Source of the DNA: a virus
Length of the DNA: 20,824 nucleotides
Direction: 5' to 3' (one strand)
Virus record (IMG/VR): IMGVR_UViG_3300020478_000086
Location: 1 to 20,824 of that record
The notes under the pieces are model-generated. The model had not been told where the DNA came from. It ran no database searches and saw only the letters and a program-made list of their open reading frames with translations. Shown here piece after piece: positions 6,001 through 19,301 of the stretch (positions within the stretch are counted from its first letter, which is position 1; each line of letters begins with the position of its first letter). The translations under genes were made by a program, and so were the position numbers.

Positions 6001-8002
6001 CAGTTGTATTTGTTTTTAAAGCAATGTACTTTTTAGCAAATACATCAGAACCACTGAATGAAAGATAAAATTCACTTTGGTTGACGCTAGTTACAAAGTA
6101 GATACCAGTAGAAATTCCACTATTAGTAGTGTTATCCCAATAGATTTTATCTCCAGTTACATAATTGTGGTTTAAAGGGGTATTGGCAAGGGGGTCGGAT
6201 GATTTTATAGTATATGTATAGCCACCACCCAATAAAGGCGTGCCAAACCCGTCTGTGACCTCTACAGAACTACTTTTAACCCATACTTTATTGTCAGTTG
6301 CAAAAACTGGGTAGTTTGGTAGACCAGATGAGGCTACATAAAAATATTTCTCTTCCTTATCGAGATAACTGTTTTGAATACCAACAGGGAAGGTATCTAC
6401 TCCAGCAAAGTAATTAGAATTATGAGATGCCTTAGTAACTGTCTTTGTAATGACACTTGGATTAACAGGAACTGTACCAGTTGTCTGAACAACGATAGTA
6501 TTTGAATATATTTGTGCTACATTGGTTGATGAATACTCAATTTGTTTAATGATAATATCTACATCATCTCCAACGTCATTTTTTAACTTAAGAATTTCAT
6601 CAATATAGAAAACACAAGAGTCATATAGGTTAATTCTATAAGTATTAACGTTTACTTGATTAATAGTCGCAATACTGTGACTAGAAGGTACATTATAGAT
6701 CCAGTTATTGAATTTGGGACTTTCTCCCATATCCTTACCGAATGAAAGCAACTTAAGACTATCGCCAAGTTGCATATTTGTAGATTTAGACGAATCTACC
6801 TGATCAATAACATTTACCAGTCTAAAATCAAGTCTAGATGTCTGACCATACCCAGCATAGGCATATGCAAGTTTATTTTCAAGTATATCTGCACCAAAAA
6901 CCAAAGAAGTAGTAATACCACTTACTCCTAAGAATTGGTTTATAGTTTTATCGGTATATCTTAAGTTCAGGAAGTTAGCACCTTCTCTTGGTTTTACCAA
7001 TAGAGTACCACTCTGTCCAAATCCAACTGTAGAGTCTACAACAAGAGTATCAGATTGAGCATCAGTCAGTTCCAATGCCTTTGTTTTACCAGGCACTTGG
7101 AAGTTACCATCAAATGATGTAGAGTCTAGAGATATCTCGTAGAAATCAGTTTGATTTATTGGTCTATACTCAACATTGTAAATTGAAGCACTGACCGTTC
7201 CAATACCAGTAATATTTTGATATAAGAAGTTACCGACAGTTTCTAATGGTTGCCCACCAAACAAGTTTTCTACAAGGACATGTTTAGTCTTGAAATATAC
7301 GTTATCAGAAGCAACTAATGTTTTATCAATTGGTTTGATAAGTTCAATTTCTTCACCATAAAGAAGTTTGAATAGAATCTGATACGATGCATCAGTTCCC
7401 TTAGACATGTAGAAGTCTTTTGCCCTTGTTAGGACATTTGTAACCGATGTTCCACTTATAAACGATCTATTCTCAAAGCCAGGAAGAAATTCTGTCTTGA
7501 ACTTGGTAAAGAAACTCTGTAAGAAAAGGTTACTTAAATTAGTAACTACTGATCCAGTAACATGAGAAGCTGCATTTGTTTGTGCAAAATTTAAGAATTC
7601 TGCAGCATCCTCTTTAGATATTTGATCTATTCCACTAAATCCTCTTGCACAACCATCAAATGTTGTAGCAGTTTTCGATGTATATGTAATTACTTCATTA
7701 TCAATCTTTAGTAGACCATAACTATCAGGCCAACCAGTAGTTGATGTTACTTCAATAGTAGAATCACCAGCAAAACATCCTAAAGTTAGTGTTGTTGACG
7801 GTACTAACGTTTCTGCATTAAAGGCACCAATTTTTCTATACTCTGGCAAATTGTTTGCCAAATCGACTACACCAGATTGATGTTCTTGGGATTCGTAATA
7901 TTGGTTTAAGAAACTCTTGAATAGAGGTGATTCTTGGTTTAAAAACTCAGGAATCTGCGACTCTATTACATGAGAGACTTTTACTCTTTTGATATCCGTC
8001 AT
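1..8002 (-). CDS. giant virion structural protein with YHYH-type motif (partial, C-terminus off window)
   Basis: The frame starting at ATG 8002, directly after the gp6 stop, stays open to the left edge, giving at least 2667 codons beginning MTDIKRVKVSHVIESQIPEF. Around residues 190-225 lies a segment (KDFYMSKGT, ILFKLLYGEE) that I recall from large cyanophage structural proteins. Residues 1250-1261 read AYDGNPIYGPYG, the signature of the YHYH domain. From about residue 740 to 2150 a GxGY motif returns at least nine times (PGQGYD, PGIGYQ, QGSGYS, GGVGYG, SGQGYR, GGVGYA, RGDGYK, PGKGYT, GGTRYN), often with a GxGA half. A second module (HNYVTGDKIYWD, RHNFEVGEGVVYD, NHRFNSGEIVEY, NHDFQTGQAV) appears at about residues 610, 837, 954 and 2610. 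These repeats suggest a long beta-rich fibre or baseplate protein. Position after gp25 and gp6 in a T4-like late operon supports a baseplate or tail role; the exact role is inferred. Confidence 0.85.
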   Translation of the reverse strand, partial: MTDIKRVKVSHVIESQIPEFLNQESPLFKSFLNQYYESQEHQSGVVDLANNLPEYRKIGAFNAETLVPSTTLTLGCFAGDSTIEVTSTTGWPDSYGLLKIDNEVITYTSKTATTFDGCARGFSGIDQISKEDAAEFLNFAQTNAASHVTGSVVTNLSNLFLQSFFTKFKTEFLPGFENRSFISGTSVTNVLTRAKDFYMSKGTDASYQILFKLLYGEEIELIKPIDKTLVASDNVYFKTKHVLVENLFGGQPLETVGNFLYQNITGIGTVSASIYNVEYRPINQTDFYEISLDSTSFDGNFQVPGKTKALELTDAQSDTLVVDSTVGFGQSGTLLVKPREGANFLNLRYTDKTINQFLGVSGITTSLVFGADILENKLAYAYAGYGQTSRLDFRLVNVIDQVDSSKSTNMQLGDSLKLLSFGKDMGESPKFNNWIYNVPSSHSIATINQVNVNTYRINLYDSCVFYIDEILKLKNDVGDDVDIIIKQIEYSSTNVAQIYSNTIVVQTTGTVPVNPSVITKTVTKASHNSNYFAGVDTFPVGIQNSYLDKEEKYFYVASSGLPNYPVFATDNKVWVKSSSVEVTDGFGTPLLGGGYTYTIKSSDPLANTPLNHNYVTGDKIYWDNTTNSGISTGIYFVTSVNQSEFYLSFSGSDVFAKKYIALKTNTTGQYIYKSGWENKTLKNQKILRKYPFIKEKTLFDDPNKREVNNRAIGLMANGVELFPPTVFDEQIFHGDITSVKVTNPGQGYDVITGPPLVINDQQGSGAVGHANISGSFREVKLVTPGIGYQEKPKITVEGGNGTGAVLESNLVRGRIVANFKADGTSVNTTDESVTFETRHNFEVGEGVVYDARGNTPIVNVVSGSTYFVGVENEKRIKLYNTPEDAKIGINTVNLGNISFGFHKFTSVNAKNTITKIYVKEQGSGYSNKKVIIQARPTNGDVQSGISTSDDYILAYNHRFNSGEIVEYSTDGTVANGLSTTTQYAVKKIDSNRFRLCDVGVSTQRDFTNYDKNKSAIIRGLGTGKHTIKYPPIVVKVESLSAIGSTTVIKPDISPLVLGSIESVYLEEGGVGYGCTNIMDFQRRPDVGISTVVYQALLKPIIIDGSIVDVQILASGQGYREDSDIIIYSPTGDFADIRPVINGNKIVGVQVLDGGVGYASSNTTLDLQNRGKSAKFIANIREWKINQVQKNENIISVEDSILTKPSTNPEYQLQTIGMYPPQKLRYQLGDNIDSGNLETPNAFHSPVLGFAYDGNPIYGPYGYQNAVGGAVIRLSSGYILDTSLKSGLRPPGFAFGYFVNDYLFDNSGDLDEHGGRYCVTPQFPDGTYAYFYSVDVDSSGVAKPKFPYMIGGAFKDTPVEENFVTFFNQDIDVASRQLTRNISPYYLTYGNSDYELIDDVKDALKQEFEVKKTKSAGITSVTVFARGDGYKVDDSLTLDNRGTDGTGASIVVSEILGKGVETVEIGITTFPGTELRKEKGLIVGITTIPHEIASGETIVLSGIDTSQFTEFNGPQKVTVIGRTVGLTTFLNNVATTGVSTHIYVTDTRGFKPSDHIGIGTETFLVTNVDVQFSRLFVNREDYVGAAMTHAAGINNVILKPKEFSFPLGASTVTQFTFENYQTFFNPQETVGVGSTGTHYDITLTGLSTSAVQTVENRFVPEQRIYIKGHTFFTGQNLTYNMGIGGTSIVWAKTSAGATSGVGTAVLPDGDVWAINFDPDYIGLSTVGFPSASDAIWFYTPASNSGFAHSLTTKYPKVTTKVERFYGAVGCSTAHGLLTGDEITLDALPKSAESVAFRYDPVIAKVTTKKVGFAVTDFSPDLTQINIADDDLQSGDKVVYYDGGNTLTGLTNNETYFILREDTESIKLCKYKSDVENSNPVAITTVSASQAGNQSFIAKINPPLTFTNGNTITFDVSDPTLLDMRLDFFEDITFNSRLDVYGSTSGGFNITRNGVSGNVDATVVIRTDIPWPTKTFYDLTPVVPSDARKTYGSSDEDVTGRNNITFRNIVIKNKHNVIRSNDTDFTFNLIDKPLDSQKYVSRTGVSTITYSTTSPTARGPVSQTKINFPGKGYTVLPKVIGFASTQGKDAIVKVSSPEIGQIDTIERIKDGFDYPTDPTLLPFLSVPAIVDISGIARIDQIKVIDGGTRYNQPPQLRVRGNDNVKIAAHVVGGSVDYVEVVNNAYEFKEPLSIITTNNSNGYDIDAITHSGTYVTAELLLDAQFNIPVKTGFASTETKLPFAVGDKVFVEGCRLTPLSLTNGEGNFNSADYDYTFYTVTGVSTDNATVTFNMGDAPGISTVTLGAYNDDFTLGSIVNYNDMAKFQMTIIDDAKYVSGEKVTSTRFEGYVSENGWNGNIGQLRLRDTIGKLLPGDTLYGQVSKLYGNVRDVNRFSVDTTLGVTRDKVSKNDMNVGILNDFSQRLSDNFYYQKFSYSIKSKLPHNRWKEAVKSIVHPSGFLEFSDLIVESDSKKDAEVLDLVSVGIAKSTNMKVRPADIKIDLILNIDSDVYMGKRDNFAMVTEDDPLPDGSVQRVYFPEGRPIKSFVMNKTNKVLNLDDISSGFNGSHDRTGTLVGSKQFQLTSGGVPAFKKQYNSADAAVVDLNLNIISIQNHDFQTGQAVLLDTQGGSKIGIATTSHTTGTKDIVMAATTSGIGGSAMFENGYNVQIP

Positions 8003-9877
8003 TTATCGTGTATAGATTGTTTCGCTAGCATAGCTAGAGGTTTTGACGTATGATGTAGCAGATGTATTTTCACCAGAAGAAACAACGTCTGGTAACGCCT
8101 TAACAGTACTGTTTGAAACGTCTAATTGTAAATACAAATCTTTTAAAGCGATAACATCATTAGATTCGGGAATAGTTTCGATTTCAATAACCCCGCTTGA
8201 TAATGAAGTACCTGTTATATTTACCACATCTAAAATAAGCTCTCCGTGAGTGTAATCAATTGTACCAGCATCATTTTTAACAACCAATGGAAGGTTATTA
8301 ACTAATTTGAAGAATACAATCTTTCCTACGGTTGTTCCCTCTGTAGGAACATCGCCAAGATAAAGAGTTCCATCAATACCATTTACGGTAAATCCAGATG
8401 AACGTACTCCATATCCCCCACACTGTTGATAGAAACCATTACCATAGCAAAGTTCATAAGTTGCGAAAGTATTGAGTTCAGGCGTTATATCCCTTCTCAT
8501 CTTAACCCTTGTGATGTTAGATGTAACACCCCTTGCAGAGTCATCTATCAATCCAACAACTTTACTATACTTGAATCTACCACCAAAATCATTAATATCT
8601 GATGATGAGGCGTAAGTTGTTAAAGTCTTTGTTACTGCACTAAGCAATTCAGTAGCATCTGAAGTTGCGTTAGTGTTATAATACACAGCAGTATCAACTT
8701 CAACATAAAGATACTTAAGATCAATGATTTCTGGTTTAATTCCAGCAATAGAATACTGTTTTAACTGCCTAGAAATGTCATCCTTAGTAATTTGCGATAA
8801 GAATGAACCATTTTTAGGTTTTACTGAGATAAAGACCTTCCCATACTCAGGAGGATCGAGTTCTTCCCCACCGTAAGCGGTCACAGACTCAACGTTAGGG
8901 TATACGAATGGAATTATCCCTGTATAATCATTGGCGGTCACGGCACGGTACTGTGACGAGTATATACGAGGTGCAAGATATTTAATAGTACTTACATCTT
9001 CAATATTATCGCCTTGTTCTGATTTTTGAGTTGTTGTTAGGAGTGAAATACCACCAGTGATTGTACTATTAGTATCATCCTTCAAAATTCCCACAAATGA
9101 GAAGTTTCTAGCGTTATTTCCTAATGCTCCGTTAGTTACAATGTAGGTAACTTCAATAATTGCTCCAGCAGGCGGTTTTTTACCAATAATTCCGTCTCCA
9201 AAGAGGATTTCATACTGCTCATCTTCAATTTCTTGGATTAAGAACAGTTTGGAAGTAGAATCTACTCTTAAAATGTTGTTATATAACTCATAAATCTCAT
9301 TTGTGGTGGATTTTACCGTAACACGAATGGAAGTGGTGTCAATATTCGCATTTGGTAAAATAAAACGTTGATTTGGTTGAGAATAGTCAATTTGGAAGGA
9401 TTTTGTAAGGTAAACACCCTCATAAATCGTCAAATTGGAGAAATTAGCAATATTATTCTCACCAGTTGTAGCAACGAAGTCATCTGGAATGGAAAATATG
9501 TATGCACTACCTTGTTGAGTACCTAATGCTACCTGTCCCGCCTTTAAAGTTACAATTTTTGTGTCATTTGTTCCCAAATCTACGCTGAAATTAACCACAG
9601 CTTGTGCAGATCGAGATGATCTAGGTACATAACCAATATTTCTTGCTAGTGATACCACATTTTCACGCAAAGTAGCACTATCAAGGAAACATTCATTAAC
9701 TGCCATGTTAGTATTGTAAGCAGTAATGTATGAGTTATATGCTAGAAGGTCAATTAACGTTGAAAAGTTAGACCCCTCAAAGTCGAAATCAGCGAAATCA
9801 CTATTAACACGCAGATAATCTTTAATTTGGGCCCTTAGATCAGCGAAATCTAGGTTTGTAAACTGGTTAAATGACAT
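8003..9877 (-). CDS. gp6: T4-like baseplate wedge subunit gp6
   Basis: This 624-aa protein is close to T4 gp6 in size (about 660 aa). The N-terminus (MSFNQFTNLDF) and the block at residues 34-85 (FEGSNFSTLIDLLAYN, then AVNECFLDSATLRENV and ARNIGYVP) are characteristic of cyanophage gp6 and related baseplate J/gp6 proteins. In T4, gp6 dimers form the inner iris of the baseplate wedge and bind gp25, gp53 and gp7; virion structural, with no enzymatic role expected. The start ATG overlaps the gp25 stop by 1 nt (TAATG) and the stop directly abuts the next ATG, so translation is probably coupled across gp25, gp6 and the giant protein. No frameshift or truncation was seen. Confidence 0.93.
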   Translation of the reverse strand: MSFNQFTNLDFADLRAQIKDYLRVNSDFADFDFEGSNFSTLIDLLAYNSYITAYNTNMAVNECFLDSATLRENVVSLARNIGYVPRSSRSAQAVVNFSVDLGTNDTKIVTLKAGQVALGTQQGSAYIFSIPDDFVATTGENNIANFSNLTIYEGVYLTKSFQIDYSQPNQRFILPNANIDTTSIRVTVKSTTNEIYELYNNILRVDSTSKLFLIQEIEDEQYEILFGDGIIGKKPPAGAIIEVTYIVTNGALGNNARNFSFVGILKDDTNSTITGGISLLTTTQKSEQGDNIEDVSTIKYLAPRIYSSQYRAVTANDYTGIIPFVYPNVESVTAYGGEELDPPEYGKVFISVKPKNGSFLSQITKDDISRQLKQYSIAGIKPEIIDLKYLYVEVDTAVYYNTNATSDATELLSAVTKTLTTYASSSDINDFGGRFKYSKVVGLIDDSARGVTSNITRVKMRRDITPELNTFATYELCYGNGFYQQCGGYGVRSSGFTVNGIDGTLYLGDVPTEGTTVGKIVFFKLVNNLPLVVKNDAGTIDYTHGELILDVVNITGTSLSSGVIEIETIPESNDVIALKDLYLQLDVSNSTVKALPDVVSSGENTSATSYVKTSSYASETIYTR

Positions 9878-10293
9878 TATATTCTAGTTGATTGAAGAAT
9901 AAATTCTATATTTTGCCTTGGGAATGGTAATCCCACAACGTCATACTTAATTACAACGGTCAATTCATTAGTATCTATTGGATATACGACAGATATATCC
10001 GTATTTTTTATTCTAGGTTCAAAGTTATCAAGTAAAAGTTGTATATCATCCTCAAGAACTAAAGCATTATCAGGATCTGCCTGTTCAAATAGAGAATCTT
10101 CAATTGAACTACCCAATAATGGGTTATAAAATCGTTCTCCAATTCTAGTTCGCACTAAATTAGTCACAGATCTTTTAATTGCAGACTCATTTGTAAACAC
10201 GCCAATGTCATCCGTCACAGGATGGCGGGTGAATGACAGACTAATATCTTTAAAAGCCTGACTTACCGTTAGCGTTTTGTTAACTTTCTGCAT
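9877..10293 (-). CDS. gp25: T4-like baseplate wedge subunit gp25 (GPW/gp25 family)
   Basis: The protein has 138 aa against 132 in T4 gp25. The order of blocks fits the GPW/gp25 family: an N-terminal segment with FKDISLSFTRHPVTDDIG, a central NLVRTRIGERFYNPLLGSS containing the family-typical RxGER.xxP..G pattern, and a C-terminal beta segment (ELTVVIKYDVVGLP). gp25 sits at the baseplate core, binds gp6 and helps nucleate the tail sheath; the old lysozyme label for this family is not supported as an activity here. The start overlaps the preceding small ORF by 14 nt, and the gene is followed by gp6 with a 1-nt overlap, the usual cyanophage order. Confidence 0.95.
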   Translation of the reverse strand: MQKVNKTLTVSQAFKDISLSFTRHPVTDDIGVFTNESAIKRSVTNLVRTRIGERFYNPLLGSSIEDSLFEQADPDNALVLEDDIQLLLDNFEPRIKNTDISVVYPIDTNELTVVIKYDVVGLPFPRQNIEFILQSTRI

Positions 10294-11773: not shown

Positions 11774-12439
11774 TTAATTATGGATTTCTTTTATAAATTC
11801 TTGACTATTTTCGGGCCCTAACAACATGCCCTGACTGTAAATTTCACTAACAGCATTACTATTAATTGCAATATCACCCGCTACAGATATTCTTTTCTCT
11901 TCTGTTAGGAAATGTGGGTATGTGGCATGTAATAAATCAGAAGGAAACAACAACATATGCCCTTCATTGTACTGTTTTTCTAGTTTCCAATTAACTTTAC
12001 GGTGTTTTCCTGTTATATCTGAGTAACTTAGTATGAAATCACCCGCCTCTGGGTGCATTGTATCGGGTATTTCTTGTTCAACCATTGCAGCATACGGTAT
12101 TTTTAACCAAACTACGAAAGAAAACACTGCATCATGGTTATGTAATGACTGATATTGACCAATTCCTGTGTTATTTACCCAAAATTTCTGAAAAGTAAGG
12201 TTATGAATGTGCGTTGACTTGCAAACAGTAGGAAATCCCCACTCTTTTATGTACTCGGCAACTACATTATTAAGTACATCCTTCTGAAATCGATGATCAT
12301 CATCAATTAACATCCATTGTTGCTTGACGCAATCGGGTTCGTACTTCTCTATGAGGTGATAGAGGTGATCCAAGTGTTCTTTTTCCAGTTCTACGTCTAA
12401 AATACCGTAGTTTGGCAACACTTTTTTGTCAATTTTCAT
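11774..12439 (-). CDS. 2OG-Fe(II) oxygenase-like protein (copy 1 of a related pair)
   Basis: The 221-aa protein has the layout of the phage 2-oxoglutarate/Fe(II) oxygenase group with an H-x-H site: a VLPNYGIL start motif (residues 7-14), STHIHNLTF (75-83), YQSLHNHDAVFSFVVW (96-111), EAGDF (131-135), then FPSDLLHATYPH (165-176) and RISVAGDI (183-190). Likely metal ligands are H100/H102 (or D103) and H171, with R183 in the place that binds the 2OG carboxylate. Such enzymes hydroxylate proteins, nucleic acids or small molecules; the substrate is unknown. It is clearly a paralogue of the gene at 12771-13436. Its start overlaps the 53-aa gene by 11 nt, and no terminator is evident after its stop. 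Confidence 0.75.
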   Translation of the reverse strand: MKIDKKVLPNYGILDVELEKEHLDHLYHLIEKYEPDCVKQQWMLIDDDHRFQKDVLNNVVAEYIKEWGFPTVCKSTHIHNLTFQKFWVNNTGIGQYQSLHNHDAVFSFVVWLKIPYAAMVEQEIPDTMHPEAGDFILSYSDITGKHRKVNWKLEKQYNEGHMLLFPSDLLHATYPHFLTEEKRISVAGDIAINSNAVSEIYSQGMLLGPENSQEFIKEIHN

Positions 12440-12770: not shown

Positions 12771-13436
12771 TTACCCTATATTAGTAAATGAACCTTCAAT
12801 TGGCTCCATACTATTCAATGCTATATCCCCAGCAAGTGATATACGAAACTCATCAGTTGTATAATGTGGATATACTATGTGATCAATGTCACTAGGGAAG
12901 AATAACATCTTACCTTCCCAACTAGAATCCAGTGTCCAACCTCTTTTTTGTATCTGTCCGCATGTATCTGGATAACATAAACAGAAATCACCTGCCTCAG
13001 GTCTAAATCCTGGCTGTAATGCGTTTTCCTTCTTACCATCAAAGGGTATTCTCATCCATACAACAAAAGTAAAGATGCCTTGGTGGTTATGTAAACTCTG
13101 ATAATCTCCTCTTGTTGCAGCACGACACCAGAAACGACTGAAGGCCAGTTGATGTTCGTGAGTAGACTTTAGTTTAAAAGGTGTACCAAAGTTATCAAAG
13201 TATATGCCTGCTGCTGGTTGTAAAACCTTCTCTGCGAATACGTGATCCTTATCCTTTATTGACCACTGTTTATCATTATAATCTTCCATTTCTAATAACT
13301 TTCTACCATCCCACTTAGCCTTGGGTGAGGTCTTAATAATAAGATCCCAGAGATAGTCCATCATTTCATCATCTAACTCTATGTTCAGTATTCCGTAATT
13401 AGGTAATACCGAAACATCTACATCCTTCATCTTCAT
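12771..13436 (-). CDS. 2OG-Fe(II) oxygenase-like protein (copy 2 of a related pair)
   Basis: This 221-aa protein shares its motif order with the gene at 11774-12439: VLPNYGIL (10-17), STHEHQLAFSRFW (91-103), YQSLHNHQGIFTFVVW (112-127), EAGDF (147-151), FPSDIDHIVYPH (180-191) and RISLAGDI (198-205). Probable ligands are H116/H118 and H186, with R198 for 2OG. Here the residue after HNH is Gln, not the Asp of copy 1, which argues that the second His rather than an HxD acidic residue holds the metal in this family. The N-terminal linker (residues 35-60) is longer and lysine-rich. The start overlaps the 175-aa gene by 4 nt (ATGA). Substrate unknown. Confidence 0.75.
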   Translation of the reverse strand: MKMKDVDVSVLPNYGILNIELDDEMMDYLWDLIIKTSPKAKWDGRKLLEMEDYNDKQWSIKDKDHVFAEKVLQPAAGIYFDNFGTPFKLKSTHEHQLAFSRFWCRAATRGDYQSLHNHQGIFTFVVWMRIPFDGKKENALQPGFRPEAGDFCLCYPDTCGQIQKRGWTLDSSWEGKMLFFPSDIDHIVYPHYTTDEFRISLAGDIALNSMEPIEGSFTNIG

Positions 13437-15037: not shown

Positions 15038-15187
15038 TTTTTTATACCTGAAAAATTTTTTGAAATGGAATAATATATAGCTCTCGCTTTTGGTTCGTTG
15101 TAGGTTAGGGACTTAAGCGTTTTTATAACCCGCCCATCGCCCATCAGGGAGCAGCAAACCTAAAGCAAATTAACTGCGAGTTTGCTC
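15038..15187 (-). other. about 150-nt transcribed leader of the 56-aa gene
   Basis: This is the expected untranslated leader from the start near 15187 to ATG 15037. It includes a GC-rich patch with GCCCATC written twice in tandem on the plus strand (15131-15145) and a possible 5-bp GCAAA/TTTGC stem near the 5' end. No ORF begins in it, and I do not recognise a riboswitch. It is unusually long for this compact genome. Confidence 0.5.
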
Positions 15188-15222: not shown

Positions 15223-15243
15223 GCAAATGCTCATGAATGAGTT

Positions 15244-15716
15244 TGAGCAATTTAGTGAGGCATATTGCCATGCCTTAAATGTAGCAAATTAAAAGAAATG
15301 TGTATTTTATAAAATGTAGCAAATAGATGTATATATTGCCTGCCTTATGTATTAATTAGTATAGGCATATTGCCTTATATTAAATGTAGCAAATAGGCGT
15401 ATAATATGCCATGCCTTAATTGTTAATTAGTGTGGCATATATGTGTATATAAAGTTGCTCAAATGGCATGCCATATTAGTGTGCCTTAAATGTAGCAAAT
15501 AGTTGTATATATTATATGCCTTATATGTAGCAAATTGATTGCATATATGTGCTGTGGAAAATGTAGCAAATAGGCATATGATTGCCTGCCATTAAGTGTT
15601 ATATAAGCGGGTCTATATTAGGGGTCTTATATGTAGCAAACTGTGTGTGCCATATATGTTAATTAGTATAAGCATATATTCATCCTTAAATGTAGCAAAT
15701 TGGTGCGGATAATTAG
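15244..15716. repeat. tandem array of about 35-bp units with core TGTAGCAAAT
   Basis: The core TGTAGCAAAT occurs at 15280, 15315, 15385, 15491, 15526, 15562 and 15691, and with a final C at 15632. Spacings are 35, 70, 106, 35, 36, 70 and 59 bp, mostly multiples of about 35. Degenerate units fill the gaps: TGAGCAATTT at 15244, TTGCTCAAAT at 15455, and TTAATTAGT-containing units at 15350 and 15420. GCCTTAAA or a close variant usually precedes the core, and AT-rich alternating TATATA plus GGCATATTGCC or ATGGCATGCCAT palindromes lie between. The array is bounded by a terminator on its right and a strong promoter on its left and contains no gene. Confidence 0.85.
15553..15561 (-). other. DnaA-box-like 9-mer (TTTTCCACA) inside the array
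   Basis: TGTGGAAAA on the plus strand (TTTTCCACA on minus) immediately precedes a TGTAGCAAAT core. The 9-mer equals the form I recall for cyanobacterial DnaA boxes and occurs five times within 1.15 kb here. Confidence 0.5.
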
Positions 15717-15733
15717 TTGCTCAAATAGGTAAT

Positions 15734-15761
15734 AAAAAAGGGGGTCTATATGTAACCCCCC
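15734..15761 (-). terminator. Rho-independent terminator isolating the repeat array
   Basis: On the minus strand GGGGGT (15760-15755) pairs with ACCCCC (15745-15740) around a 9-nt loop, followed by six T at 15739-15734. It should stop transcripts coming from the 64-aa gene before they enter the array. Confidence 0.85.
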
Positions 15762-15790
15762 GTATATACAGTTGTTTATACTAACTGTTT

Positions 15791-15985
15791 TTATAAAAGT
15801 GTAGCATGCTTAGAGTTAATCTTGCCTCGGTTTGTGTTAGTTCTGATGCCTTTAGTTTGTGTAAACCAACAATCAGATTTACGAGGTTTGTTAGCAGGTA
15901 GTCTTACATATTTGATTTTGTTTTGTGTGTCCAAAATCTGTAAATCTAACCTAGTTAATGTGCTCAAATCAGAAGGTAATTGCAT
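15791..15985 (-). CDS. 64-aa basic hypothetical protein
   Basis: The ORF reads MQLPSDLSTLTRLDLQILDT, then KIKYVRLPANKPRKSDCWFTQ, and ends KHATLL. It is rich in Lys/Arg with a single Cys, and could bind nucleic acid. An overlapping plus-strand frame (15822-16034) is as long. I prefer the minus frame because every neighbour is on that strand, a terminator follows it, and its composition is that of a soluble protein. The start is uncertain: no Shine-Dalgarno precedes the ATG, which abuts a TTTTCCACA box. If that box is bound by DnaA, the gene's expression would be affected. Function unknown. Confidence 0.5.
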   Translation of the reverse strand: MQLPSDLSTLTRLDLQILDTQNKIKYVRLPANKPRKSDCWFTQTKGIRTNTNRGKINSKHATLL

Positions 15986-16014
15986 GTGGAAAAATGTTAA
16001 TGAACTGTGGAAAA
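15985..16014 (-). other. pair of DnaA-box-like 9-mers spaced 21 bp
   Basis: TGTGGAAAA occurs on the plus strand at 15985-15993 and 16006-16014, in the same orientation and 21 bp apart, two helical turns, so both would face the same side of the DNA. They lie in the 45-nt gap between two minus-strand genes. Confidence 0.6.
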
Positions 16015-16030
16015 GTGTAAGGACGATTGC

Positions 16031-16378
16031 TTAAACAACTTGTAACGATTGCTCATTACTAAGTATCATCCCATCCCAAAACATTAACGTTTCTTTGTTC
16101 TTACCTAAGAACCAAACAAAATTCTTTTGAAACACTCTAACACCATAATTAACTTCACTAAGTAAAGCATTCAAGCGTGATTTTGTAGTTACTGTTTCAT
16201 AACCGCAAGAGTCTAATTTGACTGCTTTAGTGTTATGATCGTAAACTGCAATTTCATGCCCGTGTAGTAAAACAGTAGAACAATTTGAATTTTCGTTGTA
16301 ACTAACTGCTGTATTGGATTTGCTCCAATTAGACTTGCTGATTACAGCGTTGTTCATTGCTCTTTCGATTTTACGCAT
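16031..16378 (-). CDS. 115-aa hypothetical protein (DUF8033-like)
   Basis: The protein opens MRKIERAMNNAVISKSNWSK, contains a beta-rich middle (TVLLHGHEIAVYDHNTKAV, residues 35-53) and the block TTKSRLNALLSEVNYGVRVF followed by QKNFVWFL. The order strand-pair, TTKSRLNALL helix, QKNFxWFL and a C-terminal FWDGMIL strand matches a group of short phage proteins I recall as DUF8033; this is from memory, and no molecular function is known to me. It is the last recognisable domain-type gene before the regulatory core, 46 nt ahead of the 64-aa gene, and two DnaA-box-like sequences lie in that gap. A promoter candidate lies about 25 nt upstream. Confidence 0.7.
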   Translation of the reverse strand: MRKIERAMNNAVISKSNWSKSNTAVSYNENSNCSTVLLHGHEIAVYDHNTKAVKLDSCGYETVTTKSRLNALLSEVNYGVRVFQKNFVWFLGKNKETLMFWDGMILSNEQSLQVV

Positions 16379-16405
16379 AAATTGTGCTTAATGTGTTTAC
16401 TCTTA

Positions 16406-16434
16406 TATAATAGTCCATAATGACGCATTTACAA
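16406..16434 (-). promoter_or_regulatory. candidate sigma-70-type promoter for the 115-aa gene
   Basis: The minus strand shows TTGTAA (16434-16429), 17 bp and ATTATA (16411-16406), overlapping other TA-rich -10 options. The start would be near 16399, about 20 nt before the ATG. Moderate match only. Confidence 0.4.
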
Positions 16435-16469
16435 CCCCTTAGTGGACACTATTTTGACTGGCACAGTAA

Positions 16470-16485
16470 TTTGAGCAATTTAGTG
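16470..16485. repeat. 16-bp exact repeat of the array edge
   Basis: TTTGAGCAATTTAGTG at 16470-16485 is identical to 15242-15257 at the left edge of the array, 1.2 kb away. Both contain the enriched GAGCAA word. Confidence 0.7.
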
Positions 16486-16521
16486 GGTTTATATGGGTTC
16501 GGTAACTTATAACGAATTTCC

Positions 16522-16550
16522 TTGCCTTTTTCGAGGATTTGTGTTATAAT
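16522..16550 (+). promoter_or_regulatory. strong plus-strand promoter opposing all genes
   Basis: TTGCCT (16522-16527), a 17-bp spacer and a perfect TATAAT (16545-16550) predict RNA from about 16557 reading right. No credible plus-strand gene follows. A run of seven T at 16623-16629, preceded only by a 4-bp ATAG/CTAT stem, might end a short RNA of about 70 nt; otherwise the RNA would enter the inverted 9-mer pair and run antisense to the genes beyond 16.7 kb. Confidence 0.6.
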
Positions 16551-16661
16551 GCACGCCAAGATAACTATAATTCGCTACATTTATTAACGATAAGTATGAA
16601 AGAGATAGAGCACACAACTATGTTTTTTTAACCATTTATTTAATATACTTAAATGGCATAC

Positions 16662-16693
16662 TTTTCCACATAAATTGCTCAAACTGTGGAAAA
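16662..16693. other. inverted pair of DnaA-box-like 9-mers
   Basis: TTTTCCACA (16662-16670) and TGTGGAAAA (16685-16693) form a perfect 9-bp inverted repeat around a 14-nt centre that holds TTGCTC. It could be a paired protein-binding site or an RNA hairpin downstream of the 65-aa gene. Confidence 0.6.
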
Positions 16694-16714: not shown

Positions 16715-16912
16715 CTAATAACCCTTATTGTCTCTCTGTAGATAACATATTTTGTCTAAGAGATTGAGCAACATAGTGTAAATATTGCCCGACTCATTAA
16801 CATTTACGTCATCATATTCACTGAGCATTGTTAATACTAACATTTTCAACATTGACAATTCTTGAGCATTAAACTCTGAGTTAATTAGACGTTCTAATTG
16901 TTCATGGGTCAT
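16715..16912 (-). CDS. 65-aa hypothetical early-type protein
   Basis: The protein begins MTHEQLERLINSEFNAQELS and continues as helices (LKMLVLTMLSEYDD, then IYTMLLNLLDKICYL). It is a short all-helical protein with amphipathic, Leu/Met-rich segments and no recognised domain. The start overlaps the 48-aa gene by 11 nt; the Shine-Dalgarno GGAGG lies in the 3' codons of that gene. It is the last gene of the cluster before the 336-bp region with the plus-strand promoter, the 16-bp repeat and the inverted 9-mers, and no ordinary terminator follows. Function unknown. Confidence 0.7.
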   Translation of the reverse strand: MTHEQLERLINSEFNAQELSMLKMLVLTMLSEYDDVNVNESGNIYTMLLNLLDKICYLQRDNKGY

Positions 16913-19133: not shown

Positions 19134-19301
19134 ATACATTTCGTAGATTTTGTTACCTACGGATGACATTAATTCTGCCTCAGTATCACCATAATCTTGA
19201 TAATCAGCAAGGGCAGAATCAATAGCATCCCACTCGGCGTCAGTAAAAAATGACTTAATTGTCTGTAACTGATCGTAAGAAAAATCTCTTACCATTGTCA
19301 T
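19116..19301 (-). CDS. 61-aa hypothetical early-type protein
   Basis: The protein reads MTMVRDFSYDQLQTIKSFFT, DAEWDAIDSALADYQDYGDT and ends IYEMYKRTKV. It is an amphipathic, acidic helical protein; the pattern D-x-x-x-x-Q-L-x-x-I followed by an E/D-rich second helix and I-x-x-x-Y is shared loosely with the proteins at 19322 and 20274, so they may be one family. GGAG 7 nt before the ATG supports this start; a second Met at residue 3 is possible. It is the last gene of the operon, with its stop inside the terminator hairpin. Confidence 0.75.
   Translation of the reverse strand: MTMVRDFSYDQLQTIKSFFTDAEWDAIDSALADYQDYGDTEAELMSSVGNKIYEMYKRTKV

Follow-up and report, generated by a model that had tools for sequence, protein, structure and literature searches.

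Introduction

Host DnaA boxes are used by phage and plasmid origins such as P1 oriR and pSC101, and in E. coli the titration locus datA is a cluster of DnaA boxes. The T4 origins oriE, oriF and oriG are of the R-loop/promoter type, and T4 origins are not known to use DnaA boxes. T4-like cyanophages are among the commonest viruses of the sea, and the start of their replication is known only as a single predicted theta origin, that of Syn9; a review leaves it open whether the remaining cyanomyoviruses have such an origin (PMC2984593). In cyanobacteria the published DnaA box is TTTTCCACA (PMC6323995; PMC4674748), and it has been characterised by EMSA and footprints with domain IV of DnaA in Cyanothece, with consensus data also from PCC 7942 and Anabaena (PMC4674748; PMC6323995). 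GTTTTCCACAG is found in Cyanothece oriC oligonucleotides (PMC4674748), and DoriC reports that the letters of the box drift in GC-rich cyanobacteria (PMC6323995).

The cyanophage element described here resembles cyanobacterial oriC in its 9-mer and in having several boxes grouped in noncoding, somewhat AT-rich DNA a few hundred bp long, and similar tandem spacings of 20-22 bp and convergent pairs are seen in some host origins; however it is virus-borne, does not lie beside dnaN or dnaA, and is dominated by one convergent pair with a spacer of 14-15 bp, and its boxes are usually exact. With P1 oriR and pSC101 it shares host DnaA boxes in a non-chromosomal replicon, together with an iteron-like array in the virus studied, but no adjacent Rep gene was recognised, the phages have a T4-type replisome of their own and the array is confined to close relatives. 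Such a replisome, and a nearby promoter in seven genera, recall oriE, oriF and oriG, whereas the conserved feature of the cyanophage element is a set of phased DnaA boxes. Like datA it is a cluster of DnaA boxes away from oriC, but it is found in a virus and has a fixed geometry and position. The occurrence of the same cluster at the same place in many related viruses suggests that host DnaA is borrowed, perhaps to start the copying of phage DNA. What would be new is that T4-type phages carry DnaA boxes as a conserved module in helical phase, since host boxes in phage and plasmid origins are already known; a literature search turned up no paper that links cyanomyoviruses to DnaA boxes, most subscription papers lying outside the search, so that the absence is unproven.

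Results

Five boxes at one locus

The window analysed is a whole IMG/VR record of 20,824 bp, to which the box count in the source virus is limited, and is a fragment of a T4-like cyanophage. The features of the locus are as follows.

15092-15110, minus strand: conserved block CCCTAACCTACAACGAACC; its match in cultured phages is CCTAACCTACAAAGGTTCCC, the longest invariant run of the seven-genus alignment
15280-15702, plus strand: iteron-like array of TGTAGCAAAT, seven exact copies and one variant, lineage-specific and perhaps part of the element
15553-15561, minus strand: lone box within a noncoding repeat region, also present in the close relative L011/L068
15791-15985, minus strand: short ORF of 64 aa starting at the tandem pair, which by eye looks homologous to the Sf-FS3 gene SfFS3_71
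15985-15993, minus strand: the downstream box of the tandem pair, abutting the ATG of the ORF 15791-15985 and 21 bp start-to-start from the box at 16006
16006-16014, minus strand: box, upstream member of the tandem pair, an exact match to TTTTCCACA
16031-16378, minus strand: Kyano_Gp96 gene (PF23790, 115 aa), between the convergent and tandem pairs, used as the locus marker
16594-16655, minus strand: conserved noncoding tract adjoining the convergent pair, reading TTAAATAAATGGTTAAAAAAACATAGTTGTGTGCTCTATCTCTTTCAT on this strand, homology judged by eye
16662-16693: convergent box pair, the core of the element, consisting of TTTTCCACA at 16662-16670 (plus), a 14-bp spacer and TGTGGAAAA at 16685-16693 (the minus-strand box)

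The 9-mer occurs at 15553(-), 15985(-), 16006(-), 16662(+) and 16685(-) with no further copy in the window, and our recount agrees with the preliminary description, which had reported five perfect and unique copies, two of them in the same orientation 21 bp apart (the tandem boxes 15985/16006) and two inverted (the convergent boxes 16662/16685). In 100 dinucleotide-preserving shuffles the mean count was 0.41 and the maximum 2, and relaxing the pattern to TTWTNCACA adds one extra site in the window, at 7581. All five boxes lie in noncoding DNA or border on a short ORF, four of them lie outside the local repeat array, and the DNA beside them is slightly more AT-rich than the window (31-33% GC vs about 35%). 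The late baseplate genes gp6 (8003-9877) and gp25 (9877-10293) are followed by small minus-strand ORFs, in an order much as in S-SSM7, and the element is located between the block of small ORFs and gp25/gp6. By eye, the tract at 16594-16655 resembles TTAAATAAA...TGTGTGTTTTATCTCTCT, which is found after the pair in cultured phages. An RNA element or a tRNA was rejected as a reading, Rfam and ARAGORN giving no match in the window.

Conservation in related phages

The nearest cultured relative of the window is S-SSM7 (S-SSM7/S-SSM6a, 72% DNA identity over parts). In S-SSM7, S-SSM6a and Sf-FS3 the flanking conserved tracts are kept and the boxes are missing at the locus, S-SSM7 having at most one single-mismatch site near Gp96; as the pair is missing these phages were dropped as support for conservation, which was therefore tested in IMG/VR relatives and in other genera. 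A homology search of IMG/VR with Kyano_Gp96, blind to the boxes, provided 56 loci, 35 of them non-redundant. Most of the 56 carry copies of the 9-mer. At least three copies within 1.2 kb were found in 17 of the 35 non-redundant loci, against two loci at most for any of 400 shuffled 9-mers, and the convergent pair in 13 of the 35, against none for these 400 control words, which had the composition of the box. When IMG/VR was scanned for the convergent pair, at least 119 stretches came up, and their spacers pile up at 14-15 bp though 11-17 bp was allowed.

The copies are moreover concentrated at the locus. Nearly all of those on IMG/VR contigs of up to 90 kb are found at Gp96; the cultured genomes (171-252 kb) contain 1-8 copies each, any cluster of them sitting at the Gp96 locus, and in isolate genomes about one third to all of their 2-8 copies are placed there, while a reversed control word is rare and unclustered in contigs and isolate genomes. 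Where a cluster exists, the counts in the genomes of relatives thus show it at one place, and not the even spread that the preliminary description had named as the refuting outcome.

Among the 23 cultured T4-like cyanophages examined, which were picked partly by similarity so that the numbers give no frequency estimate, 12 have the cluster at the same locus and 11 are without it. Seven genera carry the element between Gp96 and gp25/gp6 (P-SSM7, S-RIM50, S-SM1, S-RIM2, S-CAM8, S-SSM5 and S-RIM12), and records matching S-RIM8 and S-CAM22 also carry the cluster. The conserved module gives exact coordinates in isolates: in P-SSM7 the cluster spans 46.0-46.6 kb and includes a tandem pair at 46602/46623, with the same 21-bp distance as in the window; S-RIM2 has the element at 48.1 kb, Syn9 a single box pair at 52565/52589 (52.6 kb), S-PM2 a box triplet at 19231-19264 (19.2 kb) and ACG-2014g a box pair at 45030/45053. 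By genome counts the cluster is absent from P-SSM2, P-SSM4, P-HM1, P-RSM4, P-RSM6, S-SSM4, P-TIM40 and S-SCSM2R. Since 11 of the 23 cultured phages do without it, including close relatives that keep the tracts, the cluster is dispensable for the T4-type replisome in general.

Geometry of the element

The alignment of the seven genera shows that invariance is concentrated in the boxes, in which 17 of 18 columns are invariant as compared with 4 of 14 in the spacer (Fisher p 1.4e-4); elsewhere in the alignment, 240 of 582 gap-free columns are invariant (p 4e-6). S-SM1 and S-SSM5 have an altered box, ATTTCCACA, with an exact copy 8 bp further on. In loci that were found by homology, spacing having played no part except for P-SSM7, the convergent spacer measures 14-16 bp in 19 of 26 distinct cases. 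When loci from homology and from the scan are taken together, other convergent gaps fall near 4-5 and 25-26 bp, tandem gaps near 2-4 and 11-13 bp, and divergent gaps near 54-55, 65-66 and 76 bp, common ancestry inflating the counts within a class and leaving the existence of several in-phase classes unaffected. These steps of about 10.5-11 bp, a phasing judged from the gap classes, indicate that the boxes may lie on one face of the helix and be read by a cooperative protein. The phased and inverted arrangement noted originally is therefore not peculiar to the window, as both the gap classes and the convergent pair recur in related phages.

A second conserved part of the element is the 20-bp run CCTAACCTACAAAGGTTCCC, invariant in seven genera (P-SSM7 46552, Syn9 53505); in the cultured phages it begins at a distance of about 540-940 bp from where the pair begins. 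Its first ten bases, CCTAACCTAC, occur once per genome in P-SSM7, S-SM1, S-RIM2, S-CAM8, S-SSM5, S-RIM12 and Syn9 and are over-represented in the IMG/VR loci. The phage boxes also have preferred flanks, with the consensus AGTTTTCCACAG (AG before, G/A after), and this preference is somewhat stronger than in hosts.

Boxes at the putative host origins

WH7803 and RCC307, both high-GC, have no exact box beside dnaN and imperfect boxes only, and for this reason low-GC members of the family were examined. Nineteen low-GC genomes from the same family as Synechococcus WH7803 (locus GC 0.29-0.36) have 17 exact copies of TTTTCCACA in the 381 bp that precede dnaN vs 0 in the other 56.8 kb of these loci, and 63 one-mismatch boxes vs 15; none of 300 shuffled words, the box itself excepted, was enriched above 4. 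Thus the 9-mer, identified from the start as a cyanobacterial DnaA box, matches the published consensus and is concentrated at the presumed oriC in this host family; the same consensus near the host oriC, for which the preliminary description proposed a check, is present in the low-GC members and absent beside dnaN in WH7803 and RCC307, whose missing exact boxes fit the drift of letters seen in DoriC (PMC6323995). Some of the putative host origins have tandem pairs at 20-22 bp and convergent pairs at 20-23 bp, without a common layout. All seven cyanobacterial DnaA proteins compared have the same recognition segment, GGKDHTTVMY. Close exact pairs of TTTTCCACA were also seen far from dnaN, at C1:474410-474451 in RCC307 and C1:1819368-1819420 in WH7803, and these are possible DnaA targets outside oriC.

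Discussion

Proposed mechanism

The conservation of the boxes, their concentration at one locus, their helical phasing and their identity with the host box support a reading by DnaA, as do the enrichment of the box upstream of dnaN in the host family, the similar pair arrangements there and the uniform recognition segment of cyanobacterial DnaA. In favour of an origin, Syn9, with its one predicted theta origin (PMC2984593), also has just one box pair. Recognition by DnaA is well supported from these sequence comparisons, and the reader of the element is probably the DnaA of the host. That the cluster is a host-DnaA binding module, an oriC-like array at a fixed locus and probably part of the phage replication origin, has in our estimate an even chance, and the same balance applies to the element being an origin, or part of one. 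Among the three roles considered in the preliminary description, namely titration of host DnaA, its recruitment, or reading by a phage protein, recruitment is favoured. We propose that host DnaA would bind the convergent and tandem pairs on one face of the helix, and that the resulting nucleoprotein complex would help to open the adjoining AT-rich DNA, after which phage gp41, gp59 and gp43 would start a replication bubble early in infection; this DnaA-assisted start would precede the takeover by recombination-dependent replication. DnaA binding, origin function and the hand-over to the helicase are all three steps that we infer. The wider proposal, that T4-like cyanophages start or license the first replication of their genome via host DnaA at an oriC-like element, and that lineages gain or lose the boxes at a fixed locus and in this way switch between DnaA-dependent and DnaA-independent modes, is tentative, and we rate it somewhat below even. 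If true, the timing of phage replication would be tied to the host initiator, a departure from the usual picture of T4-type phages bypassing DnaA.

Against the proposed reading we count the absence of the cluster from 11 of the 23 cultured phages, the high-GC hosts with imperfect dnaN boxes only, and the stronger flank preference of the phage boxes. Strand skew was set aside as proof of an origin, because the keto/AT skew of P-SSM7 turns at 52 kb, 6 kb off the cluster and where the structural genes have their boundary too, which confounds it, and the skew of Syn9 does not turn at the box pair; GC, keto and AT skew were examined in these two phages.

Alternative explanations

In bacteria DnaA also acts as a transcription factor, and the main rival is that bound host DnaA represses or activates a nearby promoter, tying the early-to-late switch of the phage to the replication state of the host. 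The position of the element, with small early-type ORFs on one side and late baseplate genes on the other, would suit such a role, as would a sigma-70-like promoter (TTGACA-N17-TATAAT or similar) located about 150-330 bp after the pair in the seven genera. However, the distance between pair and promoter differs by well over 100 bp among genera whereas that between boxes shows no such variation, and several boxes are far from any promoter, so that we regard transcriptional control as unlikely.

A protein encoded by the phage, with a recognition site that by accident is the same as the DnaA box of the host, could account for the flank preference, stronger in phages than at host oriC, and for the fact that the cluster travels with Gp96; but the identity of 9 bp with the box of the host initiator would then be a coincidence, which makes a private phage reader improbable. 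Gp96 itself was rejected as the reader because its fold search gave no DNA-binding match and because it is present in phages without boxes. Its model is confident (pLDDT 91) and has an internally repeated layout of a helix plus strands, for which a fold search found no solved relative and no match to a DNA-binding fold; many unrelated phages encode proteins predicted to fold in a similar way, none of them characterised. Weak profile matches of Gp96 to the fft3 helicase (E 0.0015) and to NS1 were judged to be chance. Furthermore, comparison of six neighbouring proteins with PHROGs and Pfam gave no Rep-family match, and none of the neighbours scanned had a DnaA-like match.

Titration, in which boxes on the multiplying phage DNA sequester host DnaA and halt initiation in the host, would profit from several exact consensus boxes per genome multiplied by the phage copy number, all the more as host oriC boxes are often imperfect. 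A sink needs no conserved spacing, helical phasing or fixed position, though, and 2-5 boxes per genome are few; because the geometry is conserved, simple titration appears highly doubtful. Finally, an origin of the cluster by chance or as a by-product of local repeats, other repeats being indeed present in the region, is hardly conceivable and is refuted by the shuffles, the 400 control words, the conservation across seven genera and the four boxes outside the array.

Local repeats, ORFs and promoters

The copies of TGTAGCAAAT are spaced by 35, 70, 106, 35, 36, 70 and 59 bp, near multiples of 35, and only L068/L011 and L069, which are close relatives, share the array. Another repeat, TTTGAGCAATTTA(GTG), surrounds the element in both orientations at 15240-15255, 16470-16485, 16671-16685 and 16763-16778, and its copy at 16671-16685 occupies the spacer of the convergent pair. 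Two related ORFs of 221 aa, at 11774-12439(-) and 12771-13436(-), apparently correspond to a family annotated in Sf-FS3, at the same place, as prolyl-4-hydroxylase/2OG-Fe(II) oxygenase. On the strand opposite to the genes, a sigma-70-like promoter, TTGCCT-N17-TATAAT, is found at 16522-16550(+) and may possibly give an antisense or priming transcript; S-SSM7 has TTGATA-N17-TATAAT at the matching place (L006, about 9690-9718).
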